A stretch of DNA of 10,326 nt, from positions 1 to 10,326 of the forward strand of contig CAMFIW010000054.1 of the NCBI GenBank assembly GCA_945952355.1, read 5' to 3'. Shown piece after piece: positions 699-8,271 of this stretch. The notes under the pieces are model-generated. The model saw only the letters and a program-made list of their open reading frames with translations, had not been told where the DNA came from and ran no database searches. The DNA is from an uncultured Phenylobacterium sp. (GTDB lineage: Bacteria; Pseudomonadota; Alphaproteobacteria; Caulobacterales; Caulobacteraceae). The translations under genes were made by a program, and so were the position numbers. Each line of letters starts with the position of its first letter. Position 1 is the stretch's first letter.

Positions 699-1520
699 TT
701 AGCGGAAGAGGCTGAGGAGGCTTTGCGAGGAGCTGTTCGCGATCGACAGCGCCTGCACGCCAAGCTGTTGCTTGGTCTGCAGCGATGTCAGCTTCGCGGA
801 TTCCTTCGCGAGGTCGGCGTCGACCAGGTTGCCCACACCGGCGTCGATCGAGTCTTGCAGCTTGCCGATGAAGGTCAGGTGCGAGGCCAGGGCCTTCGAA
901 CCCGTACCCAGCTTCGACAGAGCGGTCGACACGTTCTGGATGGCGGTGGTGACGGTGGCGATCATTGTGCCAGCGCCCGATTGGGTGCCGATCGACGAAG
1001 TCGCGCTCAGACCGATACCCGCGAGGGACAGGTCTTGGGCGGCAACGGTCAGCTTCGAGCTGCCGCTATCGTCCGCGAGAGCGGCGATGGTCGTGCCGCC
1101 CGCATTGATCATGTTGATCCCGTTGAACGTGGCGTTGGTCACGGACTTGGTGATCTGATCGCGGAGCGACATGAAGTCTTGGTTCAGGGCGTCGCGCGAA
1201 GCGGTATCGAGCGAGGCGTCCGAAGCGGCCAGGGCCTTGGACTTCATCTGGACGAGCAGGTCGGAGACGGCTTCACCGCCGGCGATCGCGACGTCCACGG
1301 TCGATTGGGAGCGCTGGAGCGACTCCTTGACCGCATCGAGAGAGGTGGAGGTCGCGCGCTGGTTTTGCGCGATCGCCCAGATGGCGCCGTTGTCCTTGGC
1401 GCTGGCCACCTTCTTACCGGTGTTGATCCGGTTTTGGGTGGTCATCAGGTCGGCGTTGGTTTGGTTGAGGTTCTGCAGGGCGACCATGGCCCCGACGTTG
1501 GTATTGACGCTATTCGGCAT
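699..1520 (-). CDS. Flagellin (273 aa)
   Basis: This is a filament structural protein, exported by the flagellar type III system and polymerised at the filament tip. The N-terminal D0/D1 region is at residues 1-135 ([44 protein letters not shown]). The C-terminal D1/D0 region is at about 195-273 ([35 protein letters not shown]) and ends LFR. Only about 55 residues separate them, so the outer D2/D3 domains are absent; I recall C. crescentus FljK having the same length. The central part is rich in Ser/Thr (for example LSATSS, 171-176), the sort of surface that is O-glycosylated in Caulobacter. I chose the ATG at 1520: it gives the conserved MPNSVNTN start, has AAGGA seven bases upstream, and lies downstream of a sigma54 promoter. 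The frame stays open to 1616, but that would precede the transcription start. It is paralogous to the flagellin at 1811-2656: about 120 of 136 N-terminal and 64 of 76 C-terminal residues are identical by my count. Confidence 0.97.
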
Positions 1521-1592
1521 CACTAGATCCTTGTTCTCAGGTCTCGGCCGCCATTTTGGCAGCCAGAGGCGTTTTGCCTCGGAGAGCGAGAA

Positions 1593-1607
1593 GCAAGGCT
1601 CGGGCCA
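1593..1607 (-). promoter_or_regulatory. sigma54 (RpoN) promoter of the 273-aa flagellin gene
   Basis: The minus strand reads TGGCCCGAGCCTTGC from 1607 to 1593. The invariant GG (1606-1605) and GC (1594-1593) are separated by exactly ten bases, matching the TGGCAC-N5-TTGC consensus. The predicted start of transcription is near 1581, giving a leader of about 61 bases. Flagellin promoters in Caulobacter are known sigma54 targets activated by FlbD. Confidence 0.85.
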
Positions 1608-1681
1608 TACGCCCACGGGCGATCGACCCGCGATAAGATTTTGAAATCGTGAGGTTATACCCTTGTTAGGGACGTTCTAGA

Positions 1682-1810: not shown

Positions 1811-2656
1811 TTACTTGAACAGGGCCATGATCGTCTGCGGCGTCTGGTTCGCGATGGTCAGCGCCTGGACGCCGAGTTGCTGCTTGGTCTGCAGCGCCGT
1901 CAGCTTCGCGCTTTCCTTGGCCAGATCGGCGTCGACAAGGTTGCCGATGCCCGCATCGATCGAGTCCTGCAGCTTTCCGATGAAGGTCAGGTGCGAGGCC
2001 AGGGACTTCGACCCGGTGCCCAACTTGGACAGGGCCGTCGACACACTGGCGATGGCATTCCCGATCCCGGTGATCATCAGACTGGCATTGGTCTGAGTTC
2101 CGATCGTGGAGGTCGCAGTCAGCGCCCCCAGAACCGATCCACCGAGAGACAGATCCTCGCCCTGCACGGTCAGCTTGGAGTTGCCCGTGTCGTCGGCGAG
2201 CGCCGCGATGGTCACGACGCCGCCAGGCTGGGTACCGTCCAGCATGTTGACGCCATTGAACGTCGCGTTCTTCACCGCCTTGGCGATCTGGTCCCGCAGC
2301 GACATGAAGTCCTGATTCAGCGCGTCGCGAGACGCCTGATCGAGACTCGCGTCCGAGGCTGCGAGGGCCTTCTGCTTCATCTGGACCAGCAAGTCCGAAA
2401 CCGTTTCACCAGCAGCCATGGCGACATCCACAGTGGACTGGCTCCGCTGCAGAGACTCTTTGACAGCGTCGAGCGATCCGGACGTTGCGCGCTGGTTCTG
2501 GGCGATCGCCCAAATAGCGCCGTTGTCCTTCGCGCTGGACACCTTCTTGCCGGTGTTAATACGGGTTTGCGTCATTGCCAGGTCAGCATTGGTCGCATTG
2601 AGGTTTTGGAGCGCGATCATCGCGCCCACGTTCGTGTTCACCGAATTGTACGGCAT
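1811..2656 (-). CDS. Flagellin (281 aa)
   Basis: This is the second complete flagellin, with the same two-part build: an N-terminal D0/D1 region at residues 1-138 ([40 protein letters not shown]) and a C-terminal region at about 205-281 ([35 protein letters not shown]) ending LFK. Eight residues more than its neighbour come from the start (one) and from central indels (TQPGG and SVLGAL regions). The central part, [19 protein letters not shown] (179-197), is Thr/Ser-rich. The start at 2656 is supported by AAGGA six bases upstream, by alignment to the neighbour, and by a sigma54 promoter 75 bases above. A longer reading to 2734 would begin inside the promoter. Tandem duplication with divergence concentrated in the middle and the last ten residues suggests distinct filament positions or glycan display. 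Confidence 0.97.
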
Positions 2657-2730
2657 TGGGTGTCCTTCCATTCTGGTCGGGGATGGTCCGGCTTTTGCCG
2701 GCAGGCAGTTCTTCGCCTGAGGCGCGCATC

Positions 2731-2745
2731 GCAAGCCGCGGGCCA
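2731..2745 (-). promoter_or_regulatory. sigma54 (RpoN) promoter of the 281-aa flagellin gene
   Basis: The minus strand reads TGGCCCGCGGCTTGC from 2745 to 2731, with GG (2744-2743) and GC (2732-2731) ten bases apart. The predicted transcript start is near 2719, with a leader of about 63 bases, almost the same as in the other flagellin gene. The first seven bases of the two promoters are identical (TGGCCCG). Confidence 0.85.
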
Positions 2746-2910: not shown

Positions 2911-3858
<948 letters not shown>

Positions 3859-3888: not shown

Positions 3889-6800
3889 CTAGGCCGAGCG
3901 CCTGCTCCCACGATCCGCCGGGCCGCGATCCAAGTCCAGGGCTTCAAGACTCGAGGTGTCGAACCCATGGAAGAGTGACAGGAAGCGGAACGGATGATCC
4001 CGGTAGGACGGGTACATCACGTTGTTGATATCGCTGGACGTATCGAATCGGCCGATGCGAGGAGCCTCGCCGTGCCGCTCCAGGTGATGGCGCGCGAACA
4101 GCAGGGCCGCCTGGTCGATCCAGCGCGTCACCGCGGACGCGGCCAGATGGCGCTCCAGATAGGCCCGCAGGCTTCGCAGGAAGCGGTGGGCGTTGGCGGT
4201 CGGGTTCACCAGCAGCAGGTTGGCCGTCAACCGCGACCCGGCGTTCCAGCTGATCTCATTCTCGTTGACTACGATGTCGTCGCCGGCGGTGCGATCCAGC
4301 AGGTCGGCGACCCCGCGTTGCAGGACGAGATCGATGTCGGAAACGAAGATCGGCCGCTCCAGCGCCGACAGCAGCCCGTCCAGCCGCAGGAATCGCACCG
4401 ACTGAAGGTGGGCGATCGGCTTGTCGGCCAGACCCTTTGGCGGCGCGTCATACGACTTCGTCGCCACGGCGGCTTCGTCGAAGGCGTCGGCGGTGAACAT
4501 CAGACGCGGGTCTCGCACGCCCACCTTGGCCGCGATCTCGGCGAGGCGCCCCGCGCCGCCGATCACATGGATGACCACCATTGCGGCGACATCTGCGTAT
4601 TTCAGCACCGACAGGGCGTACCAGCGCGCATAGAGATCGACATAGGCTTCATCGGCCGCGGCGAAGAACACGGCGCGCGCGCCGAGCTCGTCCGCCCTGC
4701 CCTTCAGCCCCCCGGGCGCAAGCGGCGACCCAGTGCTGTCGGCGATTTCGGCCGCCGCCTCATGCCCGGCGTCCGGTGTCGGAGCCTCGATGGCCGGTAG
4801 GTCGACCGCGTCCATCATCAGGCGGTAGTGAATCGCCCAGCCGGCCCACTCGCTATCGACCGGAAGCTCGATGACCAGCGCCCTCGCCGCGTCTTGCAGC
4901 CGCCTGACCCGCGCTAGGCCGCCGGCGTCCAGCGGGGCGCACAGAATTCGGCTCGCAAGGTCGTGGATGTCGCGCAGTCGGAGCAGCGGGTGAACATCCC
5001 TGGCCGGGTCCAGGACCTCGGAGATCTCCCCATCGAGGCTGTTCCCGGGCGAGGTCGGAGCGACTTCGGCGAGGGCCGCCAAGGCGGCCGGGTCCGCGGG
5101 GTCAAGCGCCAACAAGGCGCGCGCATAGTGCTCGACGCGATCGCGCCGCCCCAGGGCCTGGTTGCAGACAAGAGCGGCCGTGACCATGGGCGCGCTGAGC
5201 GGGGCGACCTCGGCCAGAGCCGCGGCATAGGCCTCGGCCTGCGCCATCTCGCCGGCGGCCAAATGGGCGTTGTATCGCTCGATGGCGACCAGGGCCTGGG
5301 CCCGGACGTCCTCGATCACGGTCTCCGGATCGCCAGCGGCCACCTTCAGCTCGATCAGCCGTTCAAGCGCCTCGAGGACACGTCCCATGGACGACAGCAG
5401 CCTCACCAGGGCGCGCAGGGTCTCGACATCTGAGGGGCGCGAGGCGTGCAGCTTCTGGAGCACCAGCAGCGCCTCCCCCGCCCGGCCCTCGCTGGCGAGT
5501 TCGGCGGCCATCGCTCGCAGCCGGTCGACCTCGGCCAGCGCCTCGGGCGTGTCGAACACCGCCGTCGTGTCGAACTGCTGCCGGCTGATCCGGTAGCCGT
5601 GGCCGCGCAACAGCGCTTCCGCGGCCGCCGTGTCCTCGCCGTTCAGGTGCTGGTGCTCGTAGTGCACCACGCCCGGCCGGAAACGGGCGAAGTCGAACAG
5701 CTTCAAGACCTCGAAATCGTAGCCCTCGGTGTCGATCTGCAGGATGTCGATCCGCTCGATTCCCCGCTCCGACAACAGGTGATCGAGGGTCTTGCAGGGC
5801 ACCTGGACCGGTTGAACCAGGGCGCGCAGGGCCGCGGTCGTCTCGGCGTTCGGGCTGGAGCGCCCCAGAACGCCCGTCTCCTTCAGGAGATCCTCCATCA
5901 GGAACGAGCTGATCCCGGCGAAGTGCGGCGGCAGGAGACCGCGCTCCACCGCCTCCGGATTGAACTTCCAGATGGTGCGCTCGCCGTCCTCGTCGGCCAC
6001 GGCGCAGTTGATCGGCGTGACCTTGGGGTTGCCGTCGTAGAGCGCCTGGAGCTTGTCGAAATACTGCGGGATCGGCTCGACGATGACCCCGGCGAGGTCG
6101 GCGGCCACCACGTGCGGCCGCAGCGGGTCGAAACTGACGCCGTCGAAGCCCCCGACCTGGACGAAGAAGGAGTCGGGCCGTCGCGCGACCAGTTCGGCCA
6201 TGGCGATATCGAAGGGGTCGTCGTGAGCGGACGGCGAGCCGGGGCGCTCGGATTCGGCGATCGCTTCGGCGGTCCACAGGCGCGCGTCCTCGCGGATCGG
6301 CCGGGCGGCGTGCCGTAGGCCTAGGGCGGCCCGGAACAGGCCGTGATAGTCGACCTCCCCCAGCATTTCGCGGTCGTCGTGGTCGAGCGCGATCGCCGCC
6401 TCCAGATAGTCGTCCAGATTGGCCAGGTCGGGACGAGGCAAGTCGCCCCGGCGATGGTCGTCGCACATCTGAGCGAACAGGTCTTCCAGGCGGTCGGCAA
6501 GCCTTTCCATGGCGAAGAGATCGCAGTCGGGCCTGGCCGCCTCCAGCCTGGCGCGCAGGGCCGCCAGGGTCGCCCGGTCGCGGCCGAGTTCCACGCCACG
6601 GGCCACGAAGTCGGCCGTGCGCTCGCAGACCAGATCCGGCAATCCCGCCGAGCGCACCAGGCTGCCACAGACTCGCGCAGCGAAGCTGCGGCCAGACAGG
6701 GTCAGGACGGGGACCCCCATCCAAAGTGCGTCGGACGCGGTGGTGTGCGCGCCGTAGGGCACGGTGTCGAGGAACAGGTCCGCCAAGGGATAGCGCGCCA

Positions 6801-8271
6801 GGTGCAGATCGTTGCGCAACTTGGGCGCGAAGATCAGTCTTGAAGGATCGACCCCCGCGGACACCGCGTGCTCCGCCAGCCGCGCCTGCGCCTCCGCATC
6901 GCTCTCGAGAAGCCACAGCACGCTTCCATCCACCGCGCGGAGGATCTCCATCCAGCGTCCGAAGGTGAAGTGCGTGATCTTGTGCGGCGCGTTGAAGCAG
7001 CAGAAGACCGTCGCACCCTCGGGCAGTCCGGCCTCGGCGCGGCTCGGCCTTTGCGCCGCCACCACCCGCTTGCGATCGTTCGGCTGGTAGCAGGCCAGAC
7101 GAAGGACGCGCTCCGAGTAGTAGAGCTCCTGGCCCGGCGGAATGATCCAGTCGTCCGCCACGATGTAGTGGTGGTAGGGGCTGGCCATGGTTCCCGGATA
7201 GCCCAGCCAGTTCACCTGGATCGGCGCCGGGCGCCGCGAGAACACGCCGGTGCGCGCGCTGCGCGTATGGCCGTTCAGATCCACGAGGACGTCGATCCGA
7301 TCGGCGGCGATCTGCGCCGCGGCCGCGTCGTCGGTGAGGCTGCTGATGTCGATCCAGTGCTCGACGGCCGCCTTGGCCCGGTGATGGATCGGATCGTCTG
7401 CAGGCACGCCGCAGTAGTAGGCGAACACTTCGACCCGAGCGCGATCGTGCAATTCCAGGAGTTCGGCCATCAGGTGCCCGACGGCGTGTTCGCGCAGGTC
7501 GGAGGAAACGTAGCCGACCCGGATCCGTCGCCCGGCCTCGATCGACGCGCGCCGACGGTCATGATCGCGGGGCGCCGGGATATGGTCGATGGACTCGCGC
7601 ACATAGCGTTCGGCCGAGCCGAGCTGCATCAACGGATCGTCGGTGTAGGCCGCCACCGACAAGGGATGCATGCCCCGCAGCTGAGCCGCCCTGTCGAGCT
7701 TCTCCAGCGGATCGATCGGCGGCCATTTGCACTGCCCCATCCGCATGGCCACGAACTGCTCGACCACGTCGCGGTGCGGCTGGCCCAGCGCCAGGGCCTC
7801 GCGCAGGGTCGCTTCCGCCTCGGCCATGCGATGCAGATCCGACTGCACGCGTGTGATCTGCTTCAGCAGCGCCAGTTTGTGGTCGATCGACGCGCCGGTG
7901 ACCATCGGCAGACGCGCGGCGCCGGCGCGCCACAGCTCGATGCCGTTGGCGGGCGATCCGGCCCGTTCCACCAGGCCGCCCAGATTGACATAGGCCGGGG
8001 CGAAGTCGGGATTGATCTCCAGCACCGCCTTCAGCGACTCAATCGCGGCCCCGACGTCGCCGATCTGGCTTTGCAGGCAGGCCTTGTTGAAGATCGCGAT
8101 GGCGACCTGCGGCTGCCCCGCATTGGCCGATGCCCAGGCCTCGTAGAGGGCGATCCCTTCCCGCTCGCGCCCCGCCGGGCCGAGGCCCGAGACGGCGACA
8201 ATCACGTCGGCGAGGCTCGCCGAGCCGGACTCCGTCAGCGGTGAAAGCGTGTCGGTCGGATGCTCAACCAT
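3889..8271 (-). CDS. Giant glycosylation fusion: TPR + GT41 (OGT/SPINDLY-type) + FkbM methyltransferase + TPR-like + GT-A glycosyltransferase
   Basis: This 1460-residue cytosolic protein has no signal peptide or membrane segment. Residues about 35-165 are TPR-like (AAIESLKAVLEINPDFAPAY). About 245-605 is a GT41 domain: VGYVSSDLREHAVGHLMAEL with H262 at the position of the OGT catalytic histidine, DLNGHTRSARTGVF (331-344), FNAPHKI with K431 matching the UDP-binding lysine, and YGAHTTASDALWMGVPVLTL (506-525). About 690-905 is a FkbM-type SAM methyltransferase: FVQVGGFDG (703-711), VEPIPQYFDKL (731-741), KTLDHLL (827-833), LQIDTEGYD (844-852). About 910-1075 is again TPR-like. About 1195-1440 looks like a GT-A glycosyltransferase with the metal-binding DID (1312-1314, in FVSDIDLVLQ) and WIDQAALL (1384-1391). 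Caulobacter FlmG, a TPR-GT41 protein, glycosylates flagellin, and flagellin genes lie just downstream; the extra two enzymes are not part of FlmG as I know it. The gene sits 30 bp ahead of the UDP-xylose synthase. The ribosome site is weak. Domains are firm for GT41 and FkbM, less so for the C-terminal GT. Confidence 0.9.
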   Translation of the reverse strand: MVEHPTDTLSPLTESGSASLADVIVAVSGLGPAGREREGIALYEAWASANAGQPQVAIAIFNKACLQSQIGDVGAAIESLKAVLEINPDFAPAYVNLGGLVERAGSPANGIELWRAGAARLPMVTGASIDHKLALLKQITRVQSDLHRMAEAEATLREALALGQPHRDVVEQFVAMRMGQCKWPPIDPLEKLDRAAQLRGMHPLSVAAYTDDPLMQLGSAERYVRESIDHIPAPRDHDRRRASIEAGRRIRVGYVSSDLREHAVGHLMAELLELHDRARVEVFAYYCGVPADDPIHHRAKAAVEHWIDISSLTDDAAAAQIAADRIDVLVDLNGHTRSARTGVFSRRPAPIQVNWLGYPGTMASPYHHYIVADDWIIPPGQELYYSERVLRLACYQPNDRKRVVAAQRPSRAEAGLPEGATVFCCFNAPHKITHFTFGRWMEILRAVDGSVLWLLESDAEAQARLAEHAVSAGVDPSRLIFAPKLRNDLHLARYPLADLFLDTVPYGAHTTASDALWMGVPVLTLSGRSFAARVCGSLVRSAGLPDLVCERTADFVARGVELGRDRATLAALRARLEAARPDCDLFAMERLADRLEDLFAQMCDDHRRGDLPRPDLANLDDYLEAAIALDHDDREMLGEVDYHGLFRAALGLRHAARPIREDARLWTAEAIAESERPGSPSAHDDPFDIAMAELVARRPDSFFVQVGGFDGVSFDPLRPHVVAADLAGVIVEPIPQYFDKLQALYDGNPKVTPINCAVADEDGERTIWKFNPEAVERGLLPPHFAGISSFLMEDLLKETGVLGRSSPNAETTAALRALVQPVQVPCKTLDHLLSERGIERIDILQIDTEGYDFEVLKLFDFARFRPGVVHYEHQHLNGEDTAAAEALLRGHGYRISRQQFDTTAVFDTPEALAEVDRLRAMAAELASEGRAGEALLVLQKLHASRPSDVETLRALVRLLSSMGRVLEALERLIELKVAAGDPETVIEDVRAQALVAIERYNAHLAAGEMAQAEAYAAALAEVAPLSAPMVTAALVCNQALGRRDRVEHYARALLALDPADPAALAALAEVAPTSPGNSLDGEISEVLDPARDVHPLLRLRDIHDLASRILCAPLDAGGLARVRRLQDAARALVIELPVDSEWAGWAIHYRLMMDAVDLPAIEAPTPDAGHEAAAEIADSTGSPLAPGGLKGRADELGARAVFFAAADEAYVDLYARWYALSVLKYADVAAMVVIHVIGGAGRLAEIAAKVGVRDPRLMFTADAFDEAAVATKSYDAPPKGLADKPIAHLQSVRFLRLDGLLSALERPIFVSDIDLVLQRGVADLLDRTAGDDIVVNENEISWNAGSRLTANLLLVNPTANAHRFLRSLRAYLERHLAASAVTRWIDQAALLFARHHLERHGEAPRIGRFDTSSDINNVMYPSYRDHPFRFLSLFHGFDTSSLEALDLDRGPADRGSRRSA

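Follow-up and report, generated by a model that had tools for sequence, protein, structure and literature searches.

The window, the whole 10,326-bp stretch of DNA from an uncultured Phenylobacterium that was analysed here, encodes a fused protein that in our reading is devoted to glycosylating the giant ALTTAQ repeat protein encoded upstream of it, which would then probably be exported. We put the probability of this reading at about 0.66. The main interest of the fused megaprotein is the partner that it points to, ALTTAQ.

The fused gene (3889..8271, on the minus strand, as are all features of the window given below) encodes 1460 residues in the order TPR-GT41-FkbM-TPR-GTA. Its N-terminal TPR region (residues 21-235; 7567..8211) would, by analogy with FlmG, be the substrate-binding part. 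The GT41 catalytic domain (residues 241-615; 6427..7551) was identified by Pfam Glyco_transf_41 at 3e-78, with 263.8 bits against a cut-off of 25, and its motifs are intact: it has a GAHTTASD-like motif, and His262 (codon 7486-7488) and Lys431 (codon 6979-6981) line up with H218 and K388 of XcOGT, the His and Lys at these OGT positions being ones we take to be catalytic. The domain would transfer a sugar to Ser/Thr. A tail and fusion linker (residues 616-690; 6202..6426), at which the C-terminus of unfused GT41s joins the N-terminus of unfused FkbM proteins, leads into the FkbM methyltransferase domain (residues 706-895; 5587..6156; Pfam 5.8e-20), which scores 72.6 bits with Methyltransf_21 (cut-off 22.7) and 50.9 with TIGR01444 (cut-off 37.7). 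The second TPR region (residues 906-1165; 4777..5556) forms helical repeats in the structure model, and the last domain (residues 1171-1450; 3922..4761) has both a GT-A fold and a DxD motif, here DID at residues 1312-1314 (codons 4330-4338). PDB sequence searches with the GT-A piece alone and the FkbM piece alone gave no relevant match, and Foldseek of an 820-aa model gave mostly TPR and OGT chains among the matches listed. An earlier sequence-only reading had proposed a single frame with GT41, FkbM, a DxD glycosyltransferase and two TPR segments, and suggested a domain search; all of these modules proved real, and in that search Glyco_transf_41, Methyltransf_21 and, in the second TPR region, TPR_19 were above cut-off and the N-terminal TPR matches below it.

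The upstream gene, separated from the fused gene by 148 bp, is the 3' part of a giant octapeptide-repeat protein that is cut by the contig end (8420..10326). It is a clear member of PF20080 (ALTTAQ_rpt; 2.9e-77, 254.5 bits against a cut-off of 26.4, in 23 stretches); its sequence aligns as an octapeptide array, and its structure model is an alpha-solenoid. Its C-terminal 240 residues were predicted, with a pLDDT of 94, to form a single short helix in each octad; Foldseek of this repeat model found only weak likeness (mesothelin, TMq 0.37), and no solved fold matched strongly. Among module-linked repeat proteins, Ser and Thr together make up 26-37% of residues in those measured and Cys occurs 0-3 times in those counted, and no signal peptide was seen by eye at the ALTTAQ N-termini read. 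PF20080 matches were also found in Caulobacter vibrioides, which might provide a laboratory model.

The GT41 subfamily to which the fused protein belongs is linked to ALTTAQ across genomes. We searched 199 genomes of the family, including the window's own, and found a close GT41 in 35 and PF20080 in 40, with all 35 among the 40 and neither in 159. The close GT41s comprise matches in 34 genomes at 2.1e-194 or better plus one genome (G189) in which the gene lies in two frames; the next match, of another gene, is at 3.9e-115. In 80 genomes of the genus/order set, close GT41s were found in 9 and ALTTAQ in 11, all 9 within the 11, the extras being G022 and G064 (a single weak match). Similarly, among 289 genomes of the class GT41 was found in 4 and ALTTAQ in 6, again all 4 within the 6 (extras G293 and G381), and in 23 other class genomes, in which the best GT41 was a weaker one (2.2e-115 down to 1e-80), PF20080 was found in none. 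Related genomes are not independent samples, which applies to these counts and to the adjacency counts that follow.

Within loci, ALTTAQ lies no more than 7 kb from GT41 in 52 of the 54 ALT-type GT41 rows, two of which are the window itself; the two misses are a 3-kb contig without upstream DNA (L045) and a slice that ends before the contig's repeat gene (L141). Where a relative has 4 kb or more of flanking DNA on each side, ALTTAQ was within 7 kb in 40 of 40 cases. In the slices of these same 40, a GT-A gene was present in 21, a UDP-xylose synthase (UXS) gene in 16, a flagellin in 2 and an FlgE-like gene in 2, although the UXS and FlgE-like genes can be more distant than ALTTAQ, as far away as about 9 kb. 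The order and strand of GT41 and ALTTAQ vary among loci, two of which are divergent (L127 and L130). Cultured relatives with the linked GT41 include Asticcacaulis sp. YBE204 (L041) and Siculibacillus lacustris SA-279 (L044), and the slice of neither contains a visible GT-A gene. By comparison, none of 14 other GT41s from ALTTAQ-positive genomes (12 from the family set and one each from the genus/order and class sets) had ALTTAQ or UXS in slices of 9-16 kb, a control that leaves out the second GT41 of each tandem pair in G406 and G486, which does lie near ALTTAQ.

The sequences of the enzymes follow the same division. ALTTAQ-linked GT41s matched the N-terminal TPR at 114-461 bits (the truncated L045 at 54), versus at most 18 bits for other GT41s, and every locus with a strong match, L045 excepted, has ALTTAQ upstream, although in L033 only a 134-codon ALTTAQ piece falls inside the slice. 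In a tree of 92 GT41 domains, 51 of the 53 ALTTAQ-adjacent domains fell into one clade (support 0.865), together with three unlabelled ones (L045, L141 and L033), whose DNA toward ALTTAQ is short or cut by the slice. The two ALTTAQ-adjacent domains outside the clade are the tandem copies of G406 and G486, and the remaining 36 of the 38 domains outside it have no ALTTAQ nearby.

The linkage does not run equally in the other direction. PF20080 occurs without a close GT41 in five family genomes (G022, G198, G107, G129 and G136). In one of these, G107 (98% complete), the repeat protein is 2135 aa long and Pfam detects no GT41, and the GT41s of G022, G198 and, from the class set, G293 are all more distant ones that lie well away from ALTTAQ. 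Orphan repeat genes are also present in genomes with the module, and second ALTTAQ copies are often orphans. Thus, either some ALTTAQ proteins are not glycosylated or their glycosylation falls to other enzymes. In one GT41-less slice (L143, from G129, 79% complete), ALTTAQ lies beside UXS, with the repeat frame reaching the slice edge.

Further support for an exported partner comes from more distant lineages. In G406 and G486, HlyD and a C39-like ABC exporter lie between the GT41 genes and ALTTAQ. The order in L101 is UXS-GT41-GT41-HlyD/ABC-ALTTAQ. Four genomes from another class of the phylum (G572, G578, G582 and G608), in which we assigned proteins by phmmer, have HlyD directly beside ALTTAQ together with an ABC protein of the same subfamily (889-905 bits, or 721 where the piece is cut), and a GT41 frame of 1259-1299 codons comes after the exporter; all of these except G578 also have further GT41s, one or two per genome, that score 453-482 bits and lie 8-19 kb from ALTTAQ. 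In G818, the repeat frame has 5446 codons and is followed after 84 bases by a GT41 frame (310 bits), and an ABC frame (179 bits) with a weakly HlyD-like sequence (29 bits) is close by; in G888 a GT41 (413 bits) is separated from ALTTAQ by one gene. No GT41 above 60 bits was found in the slices of eight other loci from the phylum sample, those of G601, G615, G618, G625, G629, G636, G693 or G835. A close match to the exporter was not found in the Caulobacteraceae slices, and the best ABC protein in six Caulobacteraceae genomes reached at most 250 bits versus 496 in G430, where it is not adjacent.

The fusion itself is genuine. A protein-database search that scored the 7986 candidates sharing most words yielded 38 proteins, which we sorted by domain. 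The full domain order occurs in two of them, the window protein and P0002 (1460 aa), the latter 74% identical to the former over the same full-length chain; 8 have FkbM-TPR-GTA matching the window FkbM, 7 have TPR-GTA preceded by a methyltransferase region that is divergent or of another kind, and 21 have GT41-TPR-GTA without FkbM, one of them (P0021) also lacking the first TPR. On another uncultured Phenylobacterium contig (L032), the protein is 88% identical and the frame is unbroken across the junction up to the contig end. The fusion thus recurs, but the full chain is rare in the data seen, being limited to the window, P0002 and, up to its contig end, L032. None of the 40 well-flanked relatives is fused: 21 have a separate GT-A gene beside GT41, and none was seen in the other 19. 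On this last evidence, the fusion might be two genes joined in error by annotation, assembly or a frameshift, and a frameshift joining separate genes was one of the outcomes that the sequence-only reading had named as fatal to its proposal. We looked for one and ruled it out, given the P0002 chain, the unbroken L032 frame and the low dN/dS between the window and L032 (0.10 for TPR1, 0.11 for GT41, 0.08 for FkbM, taken as residues 686-905, and 0.06 for TPR2, versus 0.34 for the linker), and we give an artefact of any of these kinds almost no credence. The dN/dS values indicate that the four compared domains are under purifying selection. The survey of architectures proposed earlier thus showed that the chain recurs and also that it is not the usual form. 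GT41 and GT-A occur fused with or without FkbM and as separate genes, so there is more than one way in which these parts were combined. The machine to "transfer, extend and methylate" envisaged by the sequence-only reading is a natural deduction from real modules, although the chain is only one arrangement of recurring parts. In a Rosetta-stone manner, the fusion ties the methyltransferase and the GT-A to one pathway.

That reading had also placed the enzyme in the class of Caulobacter FlmG, with flagellin as the implied substrate, and the flagellins are true neighbours. Two flagellin genes with Flagellin_N and Flagellin_C (1811..2734 and 699..1616), each an alternative or second substrate candidate, lie downstream, followed by a short FlaG-like gene (281-571; Pfam 16.4 bits, under the cut-off of 23.8), and flagellins also neighbour the module in L047, L048 and L108. 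According to a study in Caulobacter crescentus (PMC7591256), FlmG is a cytosolic protein of 596 residues, with a TPR part that binds flagellins and a glycosyltransferase domain that acts on them; a single enzyme can bind several flagellins, the pathway requires pseudaminic acid, and the word methyltransferase does not occur in the main text. The window protein has the same TPR and GT41 layout, and could be a glycosyltransferase of this kind that gained extension and methylation domains and targets the two downstream flagellins. Consistent with this, the best other GT41 match in the window's genome (74% complete) is only 1.8e-42, so no FlmG-like enzyme that might compete for flagellin was seen there, and NeuB was found in 14 of 17 genomes tested, the window's own included. 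However, among the well-flanked relatives flagellin is present in 2 of 40 versus 40 of 40 for ALTTAQ, separate FlmG-sized GT41s of 596 aa lie away from ALTTAQ in three genomes that have the module, the N-terminal TPR barely matches the TPRs of other GT41s, and NeuB was not found in G010, which is 100% complete and has the module. We therefore consider this explanation unlikely, and flagellin a weakly supported substrate. A broad cytosolic glycosyltransferase for both ALTTAQ and flagellins, with a shared donor and cap, would fit the window, where both candidates adjoin the fused gene, and has a precedent in the several flagellins bound by FlmG; flagellins stand beside the module in few same-genus genomes only, however, and we think it quite improbable. 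The neighbouring flagellins at these four loci, together with an FlgE-like hook protein gene directly after ALTTAQ and GT41 in a Rhodospirillaceae MAG (L046:12019-13566, plus strand), suggest that a flagellar link may still exist, and flagellin may be a second substrate. Compared with the other GT41s of these genomes, the clade of the window GT41 and the separate 596-aa GT41s hint that it may be distinct from FlmG, and orthology of the two is unsupported.

We favor the reading in which the fused protein serves ALTTAQ, and from the evidence above we infer its substrate, sugars, order of steps and the export of its product in the window's organism. The N-terminal TPR would hold the ALTTAQ repeat protein in the cytosol, where GT41 would place a first sugar on its Ser/Thr residues, the C-terminal GT-A would add a further sugar to the glycan and the FkbM domain would methylate it. 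The glycosylated alpha-solenoid would then probably be exported, as suggested by the type I exporter beside ALTTAQ in other lineages. The linkage suggests that giant ALTTAQ proteins are glycoproteins. If so, an OGT-class enzyme gains a concrete bacterial partner candidate with possible acceptor residues every 8 positions, and the ALTTAQ repeat would be useful for asking how GT41 TPRs select substrates.

The donor enzyme is probably encoded in the window as well. An SDR gene between the fused gene and the flagellins (2911..3858) matches human UXS1-type structures at 4e-125, which marks it as a UDP-glucuronate decarboxylase (UDP-xylose synthase, UXS) and suggests UDP-xylose as its product; it would probably supply a pentose donor. 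UXS is also found with the module in the distant genomes G406, G430 and G486, which supports a role with it, although UXS was not seen near GT41 in 24 of the 40 well-flanked relatives, including most of the g36 genomes. Pseudaminic acid as the sole donor was set aside on weak evidence, NeuB not having been found in searches of G008 (73% complete), G010 and G020.

How does this arrangement compare with known systems? Human OGT, XcOGT and SPINDLY, all GT41 enzymes, share the TPR and GT41 fold, the aligned His and Lys and the GAHTTASD-like motif; unlike them, the window protein has a recurrent genomic partner, and we know of no fused methyltransferase or GT-A in these three. In the HMW1A/HMW1C system, a dedicated cytosolic GT41-class enzyme is encoded with one giant exported protein, and the linked GT41 is likewise encoded near one giant protein in 40 of 40 well-flanked relatives. 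HMW1 is described as N-glycosylated with hexoses and exported by two-partner secretion, whereas here we find a Ser/Thr-rich alpha-solenoid and, in other lineages, type I exporters (HlyD/ABC). With FlmG, the likeness lies in a cytosolic alphaproteobacterial enzyme with a substrate-binding N-terminal TPR and an OGT-type domain that O-glycosylates an exported protein; the window protein differs in belonging to the ALTTAQ-linked clade, in adding FkbM, a second TPR and a GT-A, and in adjoining UXS. For PF20080, the links to glycosylation and export are newly proposed. No paper on ALTTAQ, and none on the window's type of domain arrangement, was found in literature searches with poor coverage of subscription journals. 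More tentatively, and at slightly less than even odds, we suggest an undescribed O-glycosylation and export system across proteobacterial classes, in which ALTTAQ solenoids would receive Ser/Thr sugars every 8 residues in the cytosol from a TPR-GT41, assisted by swappable and repeatedly fusing GT-A and FkbM parts, and would leave by type I secretion to form a stiff surface glycoprotein rod.

We also compared Ser/Thr content within octads. At octad position 5 the Ser/Thr fraction is 0.64-0.94 in 19 module-linked repeat proteins versus 0.15-0.61 in 4 repeat proteins from genomes in which no close GT41 was found, one of these genomes being 79% complete with UXS beside ALTTAQ. G198 (0.14) agrees with this pattern. 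The GT41-adjacent G818 and G888, however, have high values at position 4 and low ones at position 5 (0.09-0.10 and 0.21), and high scores also occur in several repeat proteins whose slices contain no GT41. Given these exceptions, the pattern, which was noticed post hoc, was dropped as proof.

Several other observations concern individual loci. P0013 (1025 aa) has an extra methyltransferase-like match (Methyltransf_25, just under cut-off) ahead of FkbM and TPR-GTA, so the modification module may be swapped or stacked. In L180-L183 (G582, G572, G578 and G608), the long GT41 frames are divergent from the type I exporter, sometimes with 800-aa GT41s beyond. The module in L131 (G189), with its linked GT41 split over two frames and its repeat protein broken into several pieces, may be decaying or mis-sequenced. 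Shorter orphan ALTTAQ genes occupy a recurring spot beside the same neighbour genes in L088, L093, L097 and L095; judging from their N-termini, these neighbours resemble priA and terC, with L095 showing the priA side only. Finally, giant PF20080 frames recur in the window, L047-L053, L034-L044, L046 and L108-L139, many of them about 1000 to 3200 aa long, and reach 5446 codons in G818.
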